The notes under the pieces were generated by a model. The model ran no database searches, had not been told where the DNA came from, and was given only the letters and a program-made list of their open reading frames with translations. A program made the position numbers and the translations under genes. A DNA stretch of 64,000 nucleotides from Patiria pectinifera. Its lineage: Eukaryota; Echinodermata; Asteroidea; Valvatida; Asterinidae. Positions 6,015 through 23,588 of this stretch are shown one piece after another (the stretch's first letter is position 1; each line of letters starts with the position of its first letter). The DNA lies in NCBI GenBank assembly GCA_029964075.1, contig CM057149.1, forward strand, positions 10,798,465-10,862,464, given 5' to 3'.

Positions 6015-7345
6015 TGGTGGAGAATCCGGGTAGGGAATATGTTTTTTAGAACTTAGCCAGGAATTGTTTTAATAGGGACTAGGCATTTTTGTTCAAAGGT
6101 TTTTTTGTTTGGTCATTGGCGGTCTTTAATTAGCTAGTTAAACCAACACAGTGCTGTTTTAGTGGATCCAAGGAGTTCACAATGGCAGCTGACGTCCTGA
6201 CTCCCCTTCAGCTGTGTGGGCTTGACCCACTGCCCACCAGCTCTGATCGAGTTAGCCAAGCGCCAAGGGCAGTAGTTGAGCCGCAGTTGCAGATGATGGA
6301 GCTGCTGCAGCATCAAGCTCAAATGCAACAAGTCATCCTTCAACAGTTTCAACAAATGGACATGTTGAAGGCTGTCATCTCGCGAGTTGTTGGAGAACAG
6401 CAAAGACAACATCTGTACATCCAGAGCCTGGAGTCTGCCCTACATCAAACGAAGTCAGCCAAAGATGTCCCTGTAGCCCCAGTCCCCATCGATGAACCAG
6501 ACCACAAGAGCAGAGAAGAGACCCCTCATCCCCTCTAGCAGACCATCAGAAGTAATCGCTACCACAGTCCCGACCAGTGGCCGAGTAAGCCAAGGTGATG
6601 AGGACATGATGAGACGTAGCCAAAGTCTGCGCCGAGCACAGCAACAGGATCCAGCCATCAGAAGGGTAGTGGACCTGAAGCTTGTAAATCCGAAGAGGAT
6701 GAGCCAGAGTAAGATGGCGCGTCAGCCGAAGATGGTACGGCGATTACTACATGTTTGGGAGAACCTAGAGGTCAGAGATGGTTTTCTGTTCTTTAGAAGA
6801 GGACATAAAGTGGTGCCAGTACTTCCCAGAGGAATGAGGGTGAAGTTCTTCACAACCTTACATCAAAGCATGGAGACATTTAGCTTTGGACTAGGTGCTG
6901 AATCTCGTCCGCCAACAGTACTTCTGGCCCAGTCTCCACAACGAGACGATGCAATACATGCGGCATCATCGAAGGCAGGTTCTGCAGAACGAGAGAGTCC
7001 TCCCGCCAGTCAAGTCTGAAGATGCGTGCAAGAACACAGCCTCGGTAGAAGTTTGTATCATCCGCCAGTCGCCTGAGTATGACAACGCGGTGTCTTCATC
7101 CAACGATGAACCCCAGCAACGAGAACAGACAGGCTCAAGTTCTGATCCTGAAGATTCAGCTGATGAAGACTGTCGCTCCAGCTCTGACGAGTCAGTGGAA
7201 ATTTCCACCTGGCCTAGATATATAATCAAATCCTCAGTCCAATTCCGAAGTTAATAATTTTGTATGTACACAACGTATATAAGTATTTTTGTATGGAATT
7301 TTTTTTGTGTTGTCAGGAGCCAACATTTTAAAGATGGCATAGGGG

Positions 7346-10710: not shown

Positions 10711-11490
10711 ATGTTATACATGTATATGTATCTGATCACTGCACTCTGGGATGGGTTAACTTTGATTTCATGGGAGGGTCAATTCACTGAGATGAGATCT
10801 TGGCCCAAAACTTACAGTGTAGACTATACATGTACATAAGAAGTGTGTGTTACATGTACATCATGGTTACATGTAGCTGTGGTGCATTGGATTTCTCCCT
10901 ACATTGGACATTACAATTGTCGACTGCTGTGATGTGGGATATGACGTTTTGAGAAAAAAAATGATTGTTTTGTTATGCTCGTGCCAATAAGTCAAAAAGA
11001 TATACACTGTATGGTTGAAACTAAATGTGTGAGAAATATTTTAATCCAGTGTGATCTAACCTTTGATATAACAAAAGGTTCTGTTGGCTTTTCTGCTTCT
11101 GTGAAAAGAGAAAGGTGATGGACATTTTTCAGCAGCCTGAGTTAAGTCTGCCTTTCAAAAGCAGAAAATGGAAACATCAACAATGTCCGATCTGATTTTC
11201 TGCACTCTGACAAAAGAAAAGCAGATTCCATGTTTCGTCCACCAGCAAAAGGAAGAAAAGTAACATCTGCTTTTCTGTATTACCGGTATCAGAAAAATAG
11301 ATTTAAGCATATTTAACAAAAATATCCAATCATCTTTTCTTGTAATAGAAAAGCAGAAGAAGTGTAAACTGGAATCTTAGGAGCATTCAATCTGCTTTTA
11401 AACTTAAAACGTTTCATCCTCCGTAAATGCCTGTTCCTGGTATACAGTAATATTTCCTCTAGTGTCTCTTTGACCGTGCTCCCCCTACGA
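10711..11490. other. Intergenic, no supported feature
   Basis: Simple AT-rich sequence with TACATGTA-type motifs (10715, 10828) and no open frame of note. The missing first exon of the SOCS-box gene could lie in this stretch or further left, but I cannot point to it. Confidence 0.4.
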
Positions 11491-11493
11491 AAT

Positions 11494-11880
11494 ACTCTTA
11501 TAAGAATCTTATAAGAATCTTACAAGAATCTTATAAGAATCTTATAAGAATCTTATAAGAATTTTGTAAGAATCTTATAACAATCTGAGAACCTTCTTAT
11601 AAGAATCTTGTAAGAATCTTATAAGAATCTTATAAGAATCTTATAAGATTCTTATAAGTATTTTATATGCAAATTAGTAAGATCTTATAAGATTCTTATA
11701 AGATTCTTATAAGATTCTTATAAGAATCCTGGCGTTGCCTACAAAATACTCTTATAAGAATCTTATAGAAATCTTGTCAGAATCTTATAACAATCTTATA
11801 AGAATAGTCACAGAATCTTATAAAAATCTTTTAAAATTTTTAAAATCTTACAAGATGATTTTAAACATCTTATAAAATTT
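11494..11880. repeat. Tandem array of ~10-11-bp CTTATAAGAAT units
   Basis: About 30 variants of AATCTTATAAG follow one another, first in one orientation (11494-11640), then inverted as AAGATTCTTAT (11640-11720), then back again (11750-11880). The core CTTATAAG is palindromic, so the array can pair with itself in many registers. Confidence 0.9.
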
Positions 11881-12386: not shown

Positions 12387-12887
12387 ACAGGGTGAGTCAA
12401 AAAAAGCGAAACCTAAATGTCGGGACCATTTTTGTAGTGAAGTTCTGCATGTAGCACTTTCAAAATCTAGGATATGAAAGCTCAATTCATAAGCTTTCGT
12501 TTAGTACAAGAATCATTCAAATCACTTATGTACTTTTCAAGTTGCGGAGTTTTAAACACAGCCGCCGTTTTAAGGTTCTGTCCACGGATCACAAAAAAGT
12601 TCAGTGTTCTCTCAGCAACACGAAAACAAATCACATACGGATGTGTGTGAATTGTTTTCGTTTTGCTAAAAGAACACACATCTTTTGTGCGATCCGTGGA
12701 CAGAACTTTAAAATGGTGGTTGTGTTTAAAACTCTGTAACTTGAAAAGGACATGAGTGATTTGAATGATTCTTGTTCTAAAAGAAAGCTTATGAACTTGG
12801 CTTTCATATCCTACTTACTAGGTATGCAGAACTTCACTAAAACAATTGTCCCGACATTTAAGTTTCGTTTTTTTTTCTCGGCCTGTA
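12387..12887. mobile_element. ~500-bp foldback MITE, copy 1
   Basis: The ends ACAGGGTGAGTCAAAAA and TTTTTTCTCGGCCTGT and about 240 bp on each side are reverse complements (for example TAAGCTTTCGTTTAG against CTAAAAGAAAGCTTA). The pairs of similar open frames on both strands come from the arms. A second copy lies at 23067-23588. Confidence 0.85.
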
Positions 12888-13089: not shown

Positions 13090-13295
13090 AATCTGACCAG
13101 CGTGTAACATTAGGTCATGACCGCTCCAGACTTCACCAAGCAGCTCAAATGGGTCGTCTCTTCATGTTGCACACGCTTATTGAAGACGGTGCTCGTGTTA
13201 ACGTCACAACCTATAATGGTGTGACGCCGTTACATGACGCGTGCAGTTCCGGCCATCTTCACTGTGCCAAGAAACTTATAAATGCCGGCGGAAAG
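13090..13295 (+). CDS. ASB: ASB exon, ankyrin repeats 1-2, version a
   Basis: Acceptor CCCATTGCACAG, donor AAG|GTAGAT. Starts with two bases of a split Glu codon and encodes SD..DRSRLHQAAQMGRL...GVTPLHDACSSGHLHCAKK, ending AGGK in phase 0. The length is 206, not a multiple of 3. It is homologous to the exon 57 bp downstream (about 54% identical from DRS on), and both join the exon at 14448 in frame. Confidence 0.88.
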
Positions 13296-16200
13296 GTAGA
13301 TTAATGGTTGTTCTTTCGCCCACCTCCTGTCCTATCAACCTATCTTCCCAGAGTCGGATGTCTTTGATAGATCCAGTCTGCACCAAGCAGCAAGTAATGG
13401 TCGCCTACTGCTCCTTCAGTCCCTTATAGATCAGGGTGTATGTGTTAATAGAGCCAACAGCAGTGGCGTGACAGCATTACATGATGCATGTCAGACAGGG
13501 CACTCTATTTGTGCAGGCAGGATCATCAATGAAGACGCTAAGGTACATTTTGTTCAAATTATGGGCAGTCTTTCCATACATACATGTAAATGTACATTGT
13601 ACTATTGGTGTGTACACACCAAATGTGCACTCAAACTGCACCAACCAAAGAGGTGTACACCCCAATTGGGAGATGTGAGCCCTACCAATTGACCAATTGT
13701 ACTACAGACTAATGCTATAATCAAACTTAGAAATCATTACTGTGATGGCACCATGGTTGCGCGCAGGTGGTATGCGCACACGCAGTGCACCCTTGACCAA
13801 AAGTGTTTTCAAAATTACATGCGCGCCTCAAATTCAGAATGCGTGTGGCATGCACTTGAGAGTGTTGTTACCTCAGTAACAGATTTATCTGCACTAGTCT
13901 ATACCTCAGGGGCGGATCCAGGAATTTTTGCAGGGGGGGTGTCATAGGCAAAAAAAATTTGAAATGTAGACACGTTTTTTTCTCACACTTTGCCTCCGTA
14001 AAGGAGGGGGTTGGGGTTATACCGATACCATACTTTCAATGGGGGCGCCGTTCAAATCCGACAATTATTAGCACTATTTCACGGAATAATGTACATATAC
14101 CCCCTAACAAGCTGGCTCTGTACGTATTTTGTCCAAGGTGGACATTATACCTAACAATATATTTTTGGTGGGGGGGGGTGCATTTTTTTCATGAATTTCT
14201 ATGAAAAACTTTTTGGACAGAGCTGGGGTTCCCCCCCTCTGGATCCATACCTGTACCTACATGTACATGTAGAGTACGATCCTCAGAAAAAAAATCAGCG
14301 TCGAACTTCAAGTTGCACTGGCTTTGACTCGACTTGAAAAATGTGTGGCTTGAACTAGGTGATGTACTCAAGGCTCACATTTGGACCAATGGCCTTGAAT
14401 TCAAACACAGTTGATTTAATGGCCTTTTTTTTTCTTTTTGACCGTAGTTGAATGCAATGGACATTGACTGGCATACGCCAATGACCCGTGCTTGTGCAGA
14501 AGGCAAGAAAGATTGCGTGCAGCTTCTTGTGCAGTCTGGTGCAAAGCTGAACATCAACGGCGAGAAGTTCTCACCGTTACATTGTGCTGTTGCAAAAGGT
14601 AAATGAAAAGAAAATTAGGAGTTGTTTTACCATAATCCTTGAGTGATCATTGTTTATTCTGCAAAATTATCAATTTGATTGTTTATTTCTGACAGTCGGC
14701 AGGGTTCGACCTTAATTTTTTTGTTTACTAGCCAGCCGGGCTACTGAAACGGACTCTTAACTACCCCGCAGGCATTTTCACTAGCCCGCATATTTTTTCT
14801 TATCTCAAATACAAAATGGCGTATTTTCAGGCTAAATTCTGAGGCAATTTTGTCAGGGTTTTTGATTAACAGATCTAATCATTTAACCCTTTAAAAACAG
14901 TTGATAAAATTAGACACAAATTGATGGGGTTTTCTTTCTGAATTTAATGATTTATTTCTTCCTGTACGTTCATCTTTGCCGTATCCCAATAATTTTTCAC
15001 TCGCCAGCCGGGCTAGTTAAGGAATAGTTTGACTAGCCCGCCGCTGTTTTGACTAGCATTTGGCTAGCAGGCTACCGCTAATTTCGAACCCTGCAGTCAG
15101 CTTTTAGTACAAGCTTACTATGCAAGCACATTGTAAAATGGTAGCTCTATGAGGAGGAAAAGCATGGATTACTATTTCCATTTTCATTTATTTAATTTGT
15201 TGTTTTTTTGAGAAGAAAAGAATTGTTGCGGGTAAAACATGCAGAATCATCAAGTAGGGGCAAATCCATCCTGGCATGTGAATAGTTTATCAGAGGTCAG
15301 CAACAAATGTTACAAGTTTACTGTAATTTTAGATTATGGTTGATTTTATGTGGACGTGATTAAGTTTCTGCATAATTCAAACACGCACAACATAAAAGCA
15401 AAAGCTCGTCTGTGGTCTAGATTGTATTGTGATCTCTATGGTAGGAGTATCTTGCACATGATTGTGGGGTAGTTTGCAACAGCAGGATATGCTATGGGTT
15501 CAATTACACGGCAAGATCGCAATTCTTTATAATAATAATAATAATACTGAAGTCTTATATAGCGCAGATATCTACCAACAATTAGGTACTCAAGGCGCTG
15601 GAGATTATGTCTATTATTAAAGACGGGTAAATGAAGTACATGAGAAATATGAGAACCATGATATAGCACCTTAATAATGGTTTACATGGTGCTGCGGCGC
15701 ATTAAGCAGCCACTGCCAGAAACACCGGGGCAAACCCCTTCTCTTAGCGATAAGTGTTAGGGTAAACTGGGGTAAAAACGCCCGATTTTTAGGTTTTTGT
15801 TAAATATCTCAGTACTACTTGGGGACACCAGGAAATAAATGTGTGGTTTTATGCAATACATGTCTCCTCTATCAGGTGCAAATATAATATCATGGTCATT
15901 ATATTGATAAGGGGGAATTTTCCCCCCTTTTCGGGAGGAAGTTTGGCGGGCGTTTTTACCCGGGCCTCGGGGTAAAAACGCCCGCCCACATTTAAAAAAA
16001 AAAAAATTGCTTTACCACAGGTTTCCCTATAGTATAGTCACATTTTTGTAATTAATTTAATATGGAGGGATTCTTCATCAAATACAAATAACTTTTCAAA
16101 CACAACTGGTTAATTATAACTACAAACTTGATCATTTAAAACAGGTATTTTTATGTGGAAGGAAGTGGAACATTAGCGTACATAATTCGCCCATAACAAA

Positions 16201-19200
16201 CTTGTAGGTTATGATAAGACCTGCCAATATTGAAAAATCTATTTCAATCTCGTTTAGTCAAATCATAGTTCCATGTTACACGTATTAGGCATTTTTGTAT
16301 GTGTGCTTCTAGCCTACTGCTGTTAACCTAAGGCTTTATCAAAGCAGAACTACGGTACTAAGATGCGCACATTTCTGTGACAAGACATATTTCTTAGAGA
16401 AAAGAAATGCGTTCATGGAGAAACTTCTACTCTGTAACCACAAGAATTTGAAATCTGTGAGCAATACATCATGAATGAAACACGACCAAAAGAACCACCT
16501 CTAGTCTTCAAGATAATCTACACACCACACATCAAAACCCAGCAGCTAACAAAAGTATTGCTGAAAGACTGGCATTTAATTCCGGAGCACCTGAAATTAC
16601 ATGCAATCTGTTTCCCAGCGAACCAATTCCTGCCTATAAAAGGCCAAAAATCTTAAAGGTGTACTTGTCAAATCAAGGTTTATCAATAACCGGGAATTGG
16701 ACTCATTACAAGGTGCACACAAAATGTTATTAGATGCACTTATGTGTATTTATGCACCCTAACATTTGACACGACTACTTTAGCCGAATATAAAATACTG
16801 GATATGGCTTACTACGGATGAAGCTCTGCTATTATAGCATGAGAGCGGAAACCGGTCCAGTTGGGTGTTAGAGCCATTTCTAGTCATTTTTCTTATTAAA
16901 AGTACACTCAATTCACCCTGGAGGTGTTATTTTTTTTTCTTAAGAAAATGCCATGAGCTCATGATTTCTCGAGCATTCCCTAATAAATGCTAGTCTGAGT
17001 ATCACCCGTTATCCACAGAGCCTAGACTCCTGTCTGACGTCTGATATATCAAAGCATGCAGATTTTTGCGATCTCGCGCCTCAGCTAATCGGAGTCGACT
17101 TTACTAAATCGTGACGTCATTTCATTCCCAAATCAGGACTAAACGTTTGATTGGTCAATTTAAATGCAGTGTTTTGTTATGCAACAACAGCTGGGCGCGT
17201 TATCGCGAAACATGGGGGGGGGGCCTGGTACCATATTTCAATAGGGGGCACTGTTCAAATTTGACGACTATTAACACTAGATTACAGAATGATGTACCGT
17301 ATTTCGAACAGGCGGACATTATAGCAGTTTAATTTTTGTTTGGGTGTCACAGCAGGGGGGGGGGTTTCGACTTATTTTTTAGAAATTTGTGTGATAATGT
17401 GGGTTTTTTTACAGAGCTGGGGGGGGGGTTTGACCCCCAAAACCCCCCCCCCCTCTGGATCCGCGCCTGACTGTTTAAAATTGATGTACATGTAGTGGGA
17501 CTCTTATAGCTAATACTTACTCATACAACAAACATAATGCTGTAGAAAGTTCTAACAGTGAGGTTTTTGAAGATAAATGAGGCTGCAATAGAGTTTGATA
17601 TCAAGGAAAGTACTGGGCGTTTTTACCCCGAGACCCCTGATTTTGCCCGGGGTAAAAACGCCCACTCAAAAAACATTATTAAGCAAATATTAAAATAGAT
17701 TTTAATATTGTAATCATTTATAATTATGTTATTAACCCTTCTTAATATATATCAACTAAAGAATAATAAAAATATAAGATACTTTTTTTTATAAAATAAT
17801 TTTAAGCGATATAGGCTAAACTTTCGACGGCCATTTTGTAAAACTTTTTTTTAAATATTTTTTTCAACAGCACCTACATACCCTTCAAATATGTTAATGA
17901 ATTTAATTCTTGTTATTATTAGTTTTTATCTACATTGTACTAATTAAAAATATATTCCATTGAACAATTCATCTTGTCATTTTTTACTAGCAGTGGAAAC
18001 AAGTCAAGTGGGCGTTTTTACCCCATGGGCGTTTTTACCCCAGTTTACCCTACTGGGTTCTTTAACGTGCATCACACAACACACGGGACCTACGGCTTTA
18101 CGTCCCATCCGAAGGACGAAGCAATAATGGTAAAGTGCCTTGCTCAAGTGCACAAGCACCATGTTCCCACCATGGGTAGTTATCGGTGGTATTGGGTAGG
18201 AGCGGAGAGAGTAGACAGAAGTGAACCACAACCCTAAACTGCTGGAAAAAAAGGCCTAGGATCCTTCCTCACTCTTGCAAAATCCAACACCATATGGCAA
18301 CTGACATCCAAACTGATTACAGTGGTATGCTTGACCCCATGAAAAGCATAGTGCAGTCCTCGCTCCAACCGAATCAAACAAAACATGCAGTTGGATTTTG
18401 AAAGATTGGGGTGGGTAGGGCTAATAAGCCAGTTCGGTACCTCGATGAAGTAGTCCAGGTCAAAGGTCATTCGGTATAAAATCACTGGGGTGATAATATG
18501 TTACGCGGACGCCCATTCTGATTTTAATTATCGTACGAGCATCGTGGGCCCGTCTCCACGTGCGTTCATACGCCTTCGATTATCCCGAATGACCCGTGAC
18601 CCATATCATTGTGCACATGCGCAGTTGAAATACTGAACTGGCTTATTGTGTTGATAGGATTTTGTTGCTTCGGCAGGTTTTACACTTTGCTGTTGTTACA
18701 TTCTGTCAAATTTCAGAATTGTGCTTAGAAATTTCATTTAGTCACACCAATAGCCACCCTACAAAGAAGCAATGCAAGCTACATTGCCACCTCCTCCCCT
18801 TCCTTCATCTCCCGTAACTCCTCCCCCTCGGTAATCATCTTACCCATGTGCTTTGTTCCACCTTCTAGGGTGTTCAGACTCGACCAACATTCTTCTGAAT
18901 GCAGGAGCCGAGGTGGATAAATTGGACCACAACAGACTGGGGACACCTCTACATGCAGCCGCCCATTGCCACCAGACAGAATGTGCCAGAATACTGCTTC
19001 AAGCAGGTATGTATATTGCACACTCAGGAGTCAAGGTACCCAACCGCCTCAGATTTTGCAGTGTGAAAGCAAACGCGCGCCAGCAAGTTTTCACGCCATG
19101 AACTCGCAAAAGTTGAACACCTTTCAACTCTGCAGAATTTCGCAGCGAATGTTTTGGAATGTCGAATTCGCATTTGCATTCGCATGAAGTACGAACCGGT

Positions 19201-21960
19201 TTTTAATGTGGAATGCTTTAAAGGTAGAATTTTTTTTTAATTGTCACTTGTGCATTTGTTTCGTTTGAAACAACAAAAGAGCTTAAAATCTAAAGAAGGA
19301 TGCTGAACAACTAACCTGATGAAGTTTCAACTCGGTGAATGCAGTATATTCTGAGACAACAATATTCTAGGATCTCAATTTCATCTCAAAAGTTGCAGAG
19401 TCATGTTTTGAATTGCGACCAAAATCATCATCGTGACACGTTCTCGTTCAGCCGATAGCAGCTACGTGATATCACACACTGAACCGATGTATAGTAGCAA
19501 CCGTATGCGTTGTGTCAAGGTTTACAAGTGCGCACCAAAGAAAGTTGGAGGAAAAAAAATCTGTTTTCAAAATGGCGGTTGGAGGTGACTCAACTGTTTT
19601 GTGTCCTAACAGAAATCATACATAAATAGCCATCATATATATTCGTTGTCCTGGTCCAAAGTGTTTAAATTATGTAAAACATTGCGAAGCTTCGCCCAGT
19701 TTCGTGAAATTGATCGTAAGTTTATTGCGCATTTTTTACTGGGCAACTAATTTGTTGTGTAAAGCCTGCGCATGACGTAAGCTATGTACTTTTTGATGAA
19801 ATCTGTTGCTGTTCTCTTGCCATTGGTCACAAAGCCCTAAGTGGTGGTCATGCACAGTCTGTTGTCATTTTGTAATCCAAAGGCAACTTGTGTCTCTGGT
19901 TTGGGTCACATTTTCTTTATCTTGTCTAACCCTAACCCGCTCGGGTGTTTTAGCTAGAAACCCTGCTGAACGCAGCCATATGCAACATTTGTCAAAATTA
20001 CAAGCCTACTGAGTGTAGCAAGATCCATCAGGTCAAAAGTCTCAAAGCCAAAACTGCCTCATCAGAATCTGTGGGCTCCAACTGCAGCAAGATACAACTG
20101 TAGCATCATTCAATGGGAGTAGCTCACATTGTCTAAGAATTAGTTATGTACTAATGTTGCTGTCTCAATTTAGCATGGTCCCACAGACTGTTTACACGTG
20201 AGTCACTGCGTTGCGTCCGGCAGGTTTCGGGCTAATATGTGATCTGTTCTGTCAAAATCAGACTTTTCTGGGCATAAGGTCAAAAATGAGATTTTTGCAT
20301 ATTGTTAAAATATGTTCTGTTTCCTTTTAATAGGTGGTTTAATTTTTGAAACCGGTCATTCCTGGGCAGAGTTATGCTATTTTGAAGTTCATTGTGTCGA
20401 AAAGTAGAAAACAGAGAAAATGGCCACGAACGTCACAAAACAGTAATTTCTTTAACTGATATACCTTAACAAATCATCAAAAATACTATAATTAGAGATC
20501 AAATTAGGGTTTCAAACTTTTATAGTATATTTTAGACATGCTCAGGATTACAAATATGCAAAATTAGAAAATGGAAAAAAATCACCCCCACAGCATTTTT
20601 TGGCCCTATCTCAATTTCAACCTCTGCCCAGAAGCGTCTGCTTTTGACAGAACAGGTCACATATGAGGTCAATACCAACATTCTCAATTTCTCATTGTTG
20701 TCTTGTAGGAGCCAGTTCAAATGCTACCAGGCCAGACGATGAACAGACAGCCTTACATGTGGCAGCATCGACATCAGCGCCTGCAGAAACAATCACCTTG
20801 CTGTTACAACACGGCAGCAAGTTACATGCCAAGGATAAAGATGGCAAAACTGCTCTTGAGTTGGCACCGGTGGATAGCGAGGCTTATGGTGTACTCAAGC
20901 ATTATCATGGTACTCATCTTTTTTTTCCCACACCATTTTTCGTAGTAGCCATTTGCATTTGTGGTTGGTTTATGAAATTATGTAGCACACATTGTTCCAC
21001 TGACCAGCTCAATGTTTTGTGTCCATCAGTGATGGAAAAACGCTGTTCATTTTTAACTTGTTCAAAGAAAAGAATTCTAATGTATACTGCACAACGCACA
21101 CATGTGTAAAAACAAAATTAAAAACTGCCAAGTTCTTATTAAAGGGAATAGACAACATGTGCAAACATTAAAAAAGGGAGCAAATGTTGTATGTACATCA
21201 TTGGCTTTTGCTATAATTTTCAGAAATGAACTATTTGAGGGGTTAGTATAATAGATCAAATATTGTTTAACTGACATGTTTGAAGTTTTGTGTTCGAAAA
21301 TGCTGGAAAAACCAAGAAAAACAAAAGTGTTCAAGCAATCTGGTTCCCTGACTCCACTAAAGATGAAATGGATCAATTTATAGATGCCAAAAAATTGTAA
21401 TGTAAGGGAACCAGTCTAGCTGGCCTGCACCCGTTCATGAACATGTAACCAATAGCAAACAAAGTTTGGACTGGGGAAAAAATGGTAAATTTGGAGCAGT
21501 AGTTAAAAGATAGTTTGGTTTTTCCAACAATGGTCGGTTGACCACCGTTGGGAATTTATACAAAAATAACCTTTTCTTGAAAATGACTTCACACCAGGTG
21601 CCATAATTTTACAGGATGCTTTAAACTGTCATTTACTAACATCCTAGTAAGATTTTTTTTAAAATTTGGTAGCTTTGTTTTTCGATGTTTGCAAATGTTG
21701 TATTTTCTCTTTAAGTGGTGTAATTGAATATTGCTTTTAAAAGTCTACATGTGGATGTCATTGTTTCTCCACATTGCACTTCCAACAACAACTTGGCTTA
21801 ATTTGCATGTTTTGTTGCCCCTATCCCTTCAGAAAATGTGCCTTTACTGTCTGAGCTGAGTCGTGAGTCGGTCAACAAGTGTCTCATCGATCAGAACAAC
21901 GCTATCGAGTTTCTACCTCTCCCAGAAAAACTCAAGGCCTTCTTGGGCTTCGAAAAGTGA
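13090..21960 (+). CDS. ASB: Ankyrin repeat and SOCS box protein, ASB9/ASB11/ASB5 group (N-terminus not found)
   Basis: Substrate receptor of an Elongin BC-CUL5-RBX2 ubiquitin ligase, by family knowledge. Coding exons seen: 13090-13295 or 13352-13542 (alternatives), 14448-14598, 18869-19006, 20709-20909, 21833-21960. All junctions keep the frame and use GT-AG. The chain gives about 270 residues: roughly six ankyrin repeats (DRSxLHQAA..GRL.., GVTxLHDAC..GH.., DWHTPMTRACAEGKKDCVQLL, FSPLHCAVAKG, GTPLHAAAHCHQTECARILL, QTALHVAAS) and a 40-residue C-terminal SOCS box with LPLPEKLKAFL as Cul5 box. The length fits ASB9/11 (about 290-320). The first exon must end with one codon base and encode a short N-terminus; I could not locate it upstream. 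Introns carry several MITEs. The ASB group is inferred from motif resemblance (DRSPLHEAA..GRL, DWHTPL.., LxLPExLKxFL). Confidence 0.9.
13352..13542 (+). CDS. ASB: ASB exon, ankyrin repeats 1-2, version b
   Basis: Acceptor CTATCTTCCCAG, donor AAG|GTACAT. Encodes SDVFDRSSLHQAASNGRL...GVTALHDACQTGH, ending EDAK in phase 0. The length is 191. It has the same start phase (1) and end phase (0) as version a, so using both would break the frame unless the second AG of CAGAG is used. The intron between the two exons is only 56 nt. Version b loses the usual GA turn at the end of its second repeat, so its fold may differ slightly. Confidence 0.85.
13907..14253. mobile_element. hAT-like MITE, CAGGGGCGGATCC ends
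   Basis: CAGGGGCGGATCCAGG at the left and CTGGATCCATACCTG at the right are imperfect inverted ends with G-rich / C-rich subterminal tracts. A related copy lies at 17212-17469. It sits in the intron between exons 13542 and 14448. Confidence 0.65.
14448..14598 (+). CDS. ASB: ASB exon, ankyrin repeats 3-4
   Basis: Preceded by a long T-rich tract and GACCGTAG; donor G|GTAAAT. Encodes LNAMDIDWHTPMTRACAEGKKDCVQLLVQSGAKLN and FSPLHCAVAKG. The DWHTP + DCVxLL pattern closely resembles the third repeat of vertebrate ASB9. Starts in phase 0, ends in phase 1. Confidence 0.9.
14700..15093. mobile_element. hAT-like MITE, CAGGGTTCGA ends
   Basis: CAGGGTTCGACC at the left and ATTTCGAACCCTG at the right, with repeated GCCAGCCGGGCTA / ACTAGCCCGC motifs just inside. 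Flanking GACAGTCGG / CAGTCAGC may be a decayed 8-bp duplication. No coding frame. It is intronic. Confidence 0.65.
15100..15525. other. Intron sequence, no further feature
   Basis: AT-rich intron of the ASB gene. No exon, repeat pair or RNA gene recognised. Confidence 0.5.
15526..15758. repeat. Dispersed SINE-like repeat, left part
   Basis: An AATAATAAT tract is followed by TTATATAGCGCAGA and GGTACTCAAGGCGCTGGAG, a tail shared by many invertebrate tRNA-derived SINEs. The repeat is split: its continuation (TGGGTTCTTTAACGTGCATC, then CTACGGCTTTACGTCCCATC) resumes at 18053 after the insertion. Confidence 0.55.
16471..16655 (+). pseudogene. Penelope-like (or LINE) coding relic
   Basis: An open stretch of 61 codons with the pattern PPLVFKIIYTPH...LKDWHLIPEHLKLHAICFP resembles the region after the reverse transcriptase of Penelope-like elements (TYxPxL..ILxxHWxLL...LxxIFxxPP). 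It is only a fragment, without the RT core or GIY-YIG nuclease nearby. The assignment rests on motif memory. Confidence 0.4.
16985..17200 (+). repeat. Dispersed repeat, copy 1
   Basis: Shares long stretches with 54670-54871 in the other orientation (CAGACGTCTGATATATC, GACTTTACTAAATCGTGACG, CAAATCAGGACTAAACG, all with small differences). The terminal word TAGTCTGAGTATCACC appears in both. It is probably one end of a DNA element. Confidence 0.65.
17212..17469. mobile_element. hAT-like MITE, CAGGGGCGGATCC family, copy 2
   Basis: Matches 13980-14253 (ATAGGGGGCACTGTTCAAAT, GAGCTGGGG, TCTGGATCCGCGCCTGA). The left end is missing. Confidence 0.6.
18053..18240. repeat. Dispersed SINE-like repeat, right part
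   Basis: Continues the repeat interrupted at 15758: GGTTCTTTAACGTGCATCAC, GACCTACGGCTTTACGTCCC, GCCTTGCTCAAGTGCACAAG. The words are typical of a widespread invertebrate repeat. Confidence 0.55.
18241..18868. other. Intron sequence, no further feature
   Basis: Intron before the exon at 18869. Small frames only. A pyrimidine-rich tract (18787-18868) leads into the acceptor CCTTCTAG. Confidence 0.5.
18869..19006 (+). CDS. ASB: ASB exon, ankyrin repeats 4-5
   Basis: Acceptor CACCTTCTAG, donor CAG|GTATGT. Encodes GCSDSTNILLNAGAEVDKLD, then LGTPLHAAAHCHQTECARILLQAG. It starts and ends in phase 1, so it could be skipped without loss of frame. The LGTPLH.A pattern is shared with ASB5/9/11 at this position. 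Confidence 0.9.
19007..20708. other. Intron with a decayed TTAA-MITE
   Basis: 19220-19530 is a diverged copy of the GATGGACTATAT family (see 45291 and 57018): it shares TTGTGCATTTGTTTCGTTTG, CAACTAACCTGATGAAG and TAGGATCTCAATTTC. The rest shows no supported feature. Confidence 0.55.
20709..20909 (+). CDS. ASB: ASB exon, ankyrin repeat 6 and linker
   Basis: Acceptor GTTGTCTTGTAG, donor G|GTACTC. Encodes GASSNATRPDDEQTALHVAAS...ETITLLLQHGSKLHAKDKDGKTALELAPVDS...LKHYH. DKDGKTALELAP matches the last ankyrin repeat of ASB9/11 (NAEGKxPxELxPPES). It starts and ends in phase 1 and has 201 bases. Confidence 0.9.
21139..21714 (+). mobile_element. TTAA-flanked MITE, subfamily B, intronic
   Basis: TTAA on both sides. 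Same plan as 4892-5412 but with subfamily B words (ACTATTTGAGGGGTTAGTAT). It lies in the intron before the last ASB exon. Its central palindrome is decayed. Confidence 0.8.
21833..21960 (+). CDS. ASB: ASB last exon, SOCS box
   Basis: Acceptor CTATCCCTTCAG. Encodes ENVPLLSELSRESVNKCL...AIEFLPLPEKLKAFLGFEK and ends in TGA at 21958-21960. The BC box aligns with ASB9 SLMQLCRLRIRKC, but the usual Cys is Ser here (LLSELSRESVNKC). The Cul5 box LPLP is intact. Elongin C binding may therefore be weaker or may rest on the other contacts. Confidence 0.9.
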
Positions 21961-23066: not shown

Positions 23067-23588
23067 ACAGGGTGAGTAAAAAACAAAACAAAAAACAAAA
23101 AAACGTCGGGACTTTTGTTTTAGTGAAGTTCTGCATGTAGCACTTTCAAAATCTAGGATATGAAAGCCCAATTCATAAGCTTTCTTTTAGTACAAGAATC
23201 ATTCAAATCACTCATGTACTATTAAAGTTACAGAGTTTTAAACGCAACCACCGTTTTAAAGTTCTGTCCACGAGATCACAAGAAGGTAAGTGTTCTCTCA
23301 GCAAAACGAAAACCAATGACATAGGGATGTGTGTGAATTGTTTTCGTTTTGCTGAAAGAAAGCACACTTTTTTTGTGATCCGTGGACAGAACTTTAAAAC
23401 GATGGTTGTGTTTAAAATTCCGTAACTTAAATATTACATGAGTGAAGTGAACGATTCTTGTACTAAAAGAAAGCTTATGGATTGGGCTTTCATGTTCTAA
23501 ATTTGGAAAGTGCTACATGTACATGCAGAACTTCACTAAAACAATGGTCCCGACATTTGGGTTTCGTGGTTTTTTTTACTCACCCTGC
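23067..23588. mobile_element. ~500-bp foldback MITE, copy 2
   Basis: Same family as 12387-12887: ends ACAGGGTGAGTAAAAAA and TTTTTACTCACCCTG, with long inverted arms (CATAAGCTTTCTTTTAGTAC against ACTAAAAGAAAGCTTATG). The copies differ at many points, so both are old. Confidence 0.85.

Follow-up and report, generated by a model that had tools for sequence, protein, structure and literature searches.

Gene organization at the locus

The window, a 64,000-nt stretch of the Patiria pectinifera genome, contains a gene in which two adjacent exons, a and b, encode homologous versions of ankyrin repeats 1-2 and are followed by exons 3 to 6, the last of which carries the SOCS box (Table 1). Neither exon a nor exon b has a usable start codon, and both were therefore taken as internal exons. 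The genome of this starfish is reported to comprise 22 chromosomes and 615 Mb, with an assembly base error rate of 0.00066 and a heterozygosity of 5.16% (PMC10511450). The genome-wide searches described here covered 613,548,705 bases.

Table 1. Features of the gene, its repeat 1-2 exons and its paralogue. Positions are those of the window unless preceded by C21; a slash marks a splice junction or sets off a dinucleotide.
Feature	Position	Strand	Description
Window	C21:10798465-10862464	+	Whole stretch analysed
Exon a	13090..13295	+	Version a of ankyrin repeats 1-2 (SDQRVTLGHDRS...NAGGK); 206 nt; donor AAG/GTAGAT
Intron between a and b	13296..13351	+	56 nt; GT...AG ends
Second AG	13352..13353	+	Directly 3' of the acceptor of b (CCCAG/AG/TCG); candidate acceptor
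Exon b	13352..13542	+	Version b of ankyrin repeats 1-2 (SDVFDRSS...NEDAK); 191 nt; donor AAG/GTACAT
Exon 3	14448..14598	+	Constant; keeps the 33-residue ankyrin spacing after a or b
Exon 4	18869..19006	+	Ankyrin repeats
Exon 5	20709..20909	+	Ankyrin repeats
Exon 6	21833..21960	+	SOCS box and stop codon (LSELSR...LPLPEKLKAFL)
Starfish paralogue	C21:9668463-9671664		Second ASB gene, 1.1 Mb away

Both spliced isoforms match human ASB9 (PDB 3zkj) in one stretch that runs from the first repeat through the SOCS box, covering query residues 10-270 for the isoform with a and 5-265 for the isoform with b. Exon b alone matches ASB11 in a single stretch of 64.7 bits. On the strength of the one-stretch match to ASB9 and the match of b to ASB11, the gene was taken to encode an ASB5/9/11-type receptor, and the earlier note had named the same family. 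The ASB family is recognized by a C-terminal SOCS box behind a series of ankyrin repeats and by an end-to-end match to ASB9. Ankyrins, designed repeat proteins and a channel rank higher than ASB9 among the PDB matches, and all of these sum many repeats. Among the human structures compared (ASB9, PDB 3zkj and 6v9h; ASB11, PDB 4uuc), the ankyrin repeats match in one stretch and the SOCS box is matched in ASB9. Exons a and b correspond to the first two repeats of ASB9 and ASB11, and the PDB chains carry one version of this segment.

The SOCS box is weak: its genome-scan score of 25.3 bits exceeds the cut-off of 23.5, but its score in the spliced query, 22.0 bits, falls below it. In ASB9 the BC box has the form LxxLCR, and a CUL5 box pattern is also given (PMC7280518). 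The BC box of the starfish gene, LSELSR, retains three of the four fixed residues of this form and has Ser for Cys, whereas the paralogue has kept LTQLCR. The CUL5 box, LPLPEKLKAFL, agrees by eye with the ASB9 pattern. A receptor carrying LSELSR may bind Elongin C weakly. Genome-wide, 28 of the 39 SOCS-box matches listed exceed the Pfam cut-off, some of them in duplicate pairs. Pairs of ankyrin or SOCS matches with identical scores, on opposite strands of one chromosome, were observed at C2:16349138 and C2:16646214, at C16:17182699 and C16:17522771, and at C3:1308353 and C3:1277630, as if these were inverted duplications or haplotypes left unmerged in the assembly.

A comparison of the 23 kb 5' of exon a with the 22 kb 5' of the corresponding paralogue exon, made for the first coding exon, gave short matches only; the best of these is repeated within the window, and none resembles an ASB N-terminus. 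A scan that combined near-consensus phase-1 donors with ASB N-terminal motifs, which we take to be those of vertebrate ASB5, ASB9 and ASB11, returned seven donors and no motif match. One of the six phase-1 donors listed has a Met in open frame. Neither approach located a convincing first coding exon.

The paralogue has the same exon order as the gene in the window, and its exon for the repeat 1-2 segment is 191 nt long and shares both length and phases with exon b. The two genes differ in that the paralogue has one version of this exon. Across exons 3-6 they share 79/198 aligned residues (about 40%, with boundaries typed by eye). No second version of the paralogue exon was found in the 50 kb around it. 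A tblastn search with a, b and the paralogue exon over the window, the 10 kb upstream and the 50 kb round the paralogue revealed no third exon copy: apart from the known exons, the matches were weak or fell in ordinary ankyrin repeats. Likewise, no third place of comparable score emerged when the whole genome was searched with a and with b.

Homology of exons a and b

In both a and b the first two bases complete a split codon and the 3' end falls on a codon boundary, and the length of each leaves a remainder of 2 on division by 3. Each is preceded by AG and followed by GT. From DRS onward the two exons align without gaps, with 32/59 identical residues and 104/177 identical bases. The score of their global alignment is 154, compared with a maximum of 41 among 2000 shuffles of b. 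In whole-genome searches, the best match besides self is b for exon a and a for exon b. Both exons exceed the cut-off of the Pfam ankyrin models, with a scoring higher than b. Mutually exclusive tandem-duplicated exons are recognized as adjacent, homologous internal exons that share their phases and keep their frames intact. The earlier note had described the pair as homologous versions of repeats 1-2 that begin in phase 1, end in phase 0 and are separated by a 56-nt intron, and its description is exact to the base.

An assembly artefact was considered as the origin of the pair and rejected, because a and b differ in 73/177 bases and 27/59 residues and because each exon has a full-identity match at one place only in the genome-wide searches.

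Predicted splice products

Four splice outcomes were assembled in silico, with residues counted from the start of exon a or b. Inclusion of a alone leaves the frame open to the SOCS-box stop over 273 residues, and inclusion of b alone does so over 268 residues. When both exons are included through the normal acceptor of b, the frame closes at codon 94, which is the 26th codon beyond the a-b joint, and skipping of both leads to a stop at codon 6. Retention of the intron after a results in an immediate stop, reading GTA GAT TAA. With normal splice sites, only single inclusion keeps the frame open in these assemblies, in line with what had been proposed; joint inclusion and joint skipping are both non-productive.

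The exception is created by the second AG. When it is used as the acceptor in silico, a joins b in frame and the product reads through to the SOCS stop over 336 residues. Double inclusion shifts the frame, as claimed, through the acceptor ending at 13351 but not through the second AG, a caveat absent from the earlier note. Repeat spacing into exon 3 is 33 residues from a and 33 from b, against 30 residues at the a-b joint of the second-AG product, so that the two exons fit the repeat ladder as alternatives.

Size of the intron between a and b

The last 40 nt of the 56-nt intron are 77.5% C+T. A single yTnAy motif resembling a branch point is present, with its A at +9, and the looser ynAy motif places the A at +9, +27, +39, +43 and +47. 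A branch point would have to lie within about 6 nt of the 3' end of the intron to be 50 nt or more away from the donor of a. For human exclusive exons, a donor-to-branch-point distance of less than 50 nt has been used as the criterion for potential steric interference; among 629 human exclusive-exon clusters, 57 (9%) show such a distance and 377 (60%) are frame-incompatible (PMC5740500). By its size, which is what bounds the branch-point position here, the starfish intron places nearly any branch point under this limit.

Introns from the same genome were sampled as the gaps between adjacent exons of other genes (n=106, comprising 21 from myosin heads, 35 from TCP1 and 50 from kinesins). All 75, 65 and 130 listed matches, respectively, were used, and the myosin and kinesin candidates were scored in part. 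Same-strand neighbours were kept only if their profile positions met to within 20 and they lay no more than 30 kb apart. The sampled sizes, which are estimates from profile matches, have a minimum of about 97 nt and a median of 754.5 nt, with three below 200 nt. Once placed on GT...AG with the protein reading through, the smallest sampled intron is 106 nt. The 56-nt intron is about half as long as the shortest of the 106.

Eight single profile matches have an excess of more than 30 nt in which short introns could be hidden. The four smallest excesses (36, 36, 60 and 90 nt) were read and give continuous protein, with a TAG at the end in C12:767337-767552; the remaining excesses of 147, 174, 216 and 219 nt lie outside this reading. 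A loose GT/AG search, with the 90-nt case left out, found pairs 35-67 nt apart in one match and 40-116 nt apart in another, and a short intron is unlikely to be hidden in these matches. Since single matches may conceal introns, the statement on intron size is based on the 106 adjacent-exon gaps. An intron far below these 106, in which nearly any branch point falls under the limit of about 50 nt, is compatible with blocked splicing from a to b, which had been suggested on the basis of its shortness.

Predicted position of the repeat 1-2 segment on the substrate face

Creatine kinase bound to human ASB9 protects peptides between residues 25 and 107, and the strongest protection is described for residues 50-59, in the second helix of repeat 1 (PMC7280518). 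According to the match with the cryo-EM chain, whose first 20 residues were inferred to be a tag, the D of DRS corresponds to about ASB9 residue 36. On this inferred numbering, a and b from DRS on correspond to about residues 36-94, within the protected stretch, and they differ at 6/10 residues in the equivalent of ASB9 50-59. The repeat 1-2 segment, which the earlier note had assigned to the substrate-binding face, appears by this analogy to lie where the substrate face of human ASB9 has been measured. Because a and b span the protected stretch and six of the ten residues differ there, an effect of the exchange on substrate binding is plausible.

Positions varied in designed ankyrins were also compared, both the positions and the repeat register being those we presume to apply. 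Exons a and b differ at 9/11 of these positions and at 18/48 elsewhere, a modest enrichment (p 0.016). At the same positions a differs from the paralogue at 8/11 and b at 9/11. Because both paralogue comparisons show a similar tendency, the enrichment between a and b does not prove that a new face was selected for.

Proposed exclusive use of exons a and b

We propose that a and b form a mutually exclusive exon pair in an ASB5/9/11-type receptor, enforced by a steric block and giving isoforms with different substrate binding; we estimate the probability of this reading at roughly 0.78. The exon for ankyrin repeats 1-2 would have been duplicated in tandem long ago, with both copies retained. The upstream exon would be joined to a or to b, and whichever of the two is chosen would be joined to exon 3. 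The 56-nt intron would prevent a from being spliced to b: its branch point would sit within about 50 nt of the donor of a, too near for donor and branch point to be engaged together. Transcripts formed with normal sites that contain both exons or neither would meet an early stop and probably be destroyed. Outside the first two repeats and the short peptide preceding them, the two proteins would be identical. Isoforms that differ where ASB9 grips its substrate could bind different targets, or one target at different strength. A more specific form of the proposal, in which a Cullin-5 receptor gene switches its substrate by a sterically exclusive exchange of repeats 1-2, with the remainder of the ligase unchanged, is put forward tentatively, at a little under even odds.

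The early stops that follow both joint skipping and double inclusion through the normal sites would also suit a role in dose control, in which the proteins made with a or b are equivalent and the non-productive RNAs, with both exons or with neither, lower the output of the gene. Equivalence, however, agrees poorly with 27/59 differing residues and with six differences among the ten residues opposite the most protected ASB9 peptide (numbering inferred), and dose control would give a poor account of the long retention of two such different versions. We consider this explanation unlikely.

The divergence of the two exons bears on whether both are in use. Identity between a and b by codon position 1, 2 and 3 is 41, 44 and 19 of 59, respectively, with pS 0.77 and pN 0.30 (Nei-Gojobori). 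Synonymous sites are saturated and replacement sites are not, indicating that both copies have long been kept by selection. The paralogue exon shows the same pattern of saturated synonymous sites and conserved protein against a and against b. The alignment and the pS and pN values agree with the view that a and b are intact, same-phase homologues that diverged under constraint. Neutral simulations at a branch length of 0.5 left the frame open in 663 to 726 of 3000 runs, and the mean identity to the start dropped to about 22/59. An open frame survives often under neutrality and is therefore weak evidence by itself; the codon-position pattern carries the argument.

These results speak against exon b being dead or dying, never or rarely used, with a as the only working version. 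Such decay would fit the lower Ank_4 score of b (34.9 bits vs 46.9 bits for a) and its departures from both a and the paralogue at a Pro and a Gly of repeat 2. Against it, the 63-codon frame of b is intact and flanked by AG upstream and GT downstream, its codon positions 1 and 2 are conserved despite synonymous saturation in comparison with both a and the paralogue, and neutral change in the simulations lowered mean identity to the start to about 22/59. Private changes, counted with the paralogue as the third sequence, number 6 in b, 3 in a and 9 in the paralogue. Six changes against three are no marked excess and do not mark b as decaying. Loss of b is regarded as quite improbable.

The identity between a and b (32/59) is slightly above that between a and the paralogue or between b and the paralogue. 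Since these identities are close, the exon duplication may date from around the time of the gene duplication or from somewhat later, a dating that rests on three sequences, too few to settle the order.

Tandem inclusion, with a and b spliced in series through the second AG to give two extra repeats, is the least probable of the explanations considered: ankyrin solenoids tolerate extra repeats, and the AG is placed exactly for frame restoration with its 336-residue product open to the SOCS stop, but the a-b joint would have a spacing of 30 residues in place of the 33 from either exon into exon 3, a GAG right behind a CAG is a weaker acceptor, the intron would measure 58 nt, far below the 106 sampled introns, and the same acceptor joined to the upstream exon alone would shift the frame of b.

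Comparison with known exclusive exons

Exclusive use of a and b by steric interference would have precedents in other proteins. Exons 2/3 of alpha-tropomyosin, an unrelated protein, are the classical case of exclusive splicing in which the branch point is too near the upstream donor. In OGDH, exons 4a/4b are likewise a mutually exclusive tandem pair separated by a short intron, and the choice between them is enforced by branch points within the steric limit of about 50 nt from the upstream donor (PMC7969005). The OGDH branch points were mapped experimentally, those in human lying 25-41 nt from the donor, whereas here the position is bounded by intron size; the OGDH product is a metabolic enzyme, an unrelated protein (PMC7969005). 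Exons Ab/3 of U2AF1 are duplicated homologous exons for which, as here, joint inclusion or joint skipping leads to stops (PMC5224494). Their control is attributed to branch-point and polypyrimidine-tract organization together with trans-acting factors, and the two exons differ at seven residues (PMC5224494), compared with 27/59 between the starfish exons.

The exon arrangement of the starfish gene is of a well-known kind. Its place, judged from sequence, is what sets it apart, in a ligase receptor whose forms would differ only at the grip on the substrate. Among the papers listed on exclusive exons in connection with ankyrin repeats, SOCS box proteins, sea urchins, Patiria or ubiquitin-ligase substrate receptors, in one listing the best 12 of 164, no ASB case appeared. 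Few ASB receptors have known substrates according to the account in PMC7280518. As a natural isoform pair, the two predicted proteins would be informative in this respect, because any difference in binding must come from the exchanged 63 to 68 residues. The locus would also be a conveniently small setting for testing the steric model, in a starfish with sampled introns close to double this length or more.

Sequences surrounding the exon pair

Several other sequences were noted in the window. Positions 6134-7251 contain overlapping open frames that have the appearance of retroelement remains, including a stretch that we take, by eye, to be integrase-like and zinc-binding. A search of the region for phage gave no match. 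Degenerate TCTTATAAGAA-type repeats, A+T-rich and satellite-like by eye, occupy 11480-11880, 5' of exon a. A palindromic foldback element at 12399-12875 ends about 215 nt 5' of exon a; one pair of its arms measures 171 nt at 87% identity with 4 nt between, and another measures 52 nt at 90%. Related sequence is present near 23141-23580. If transcribed, the foldback at 12399-12875 would form a long hairpin ahead of the exon pair.
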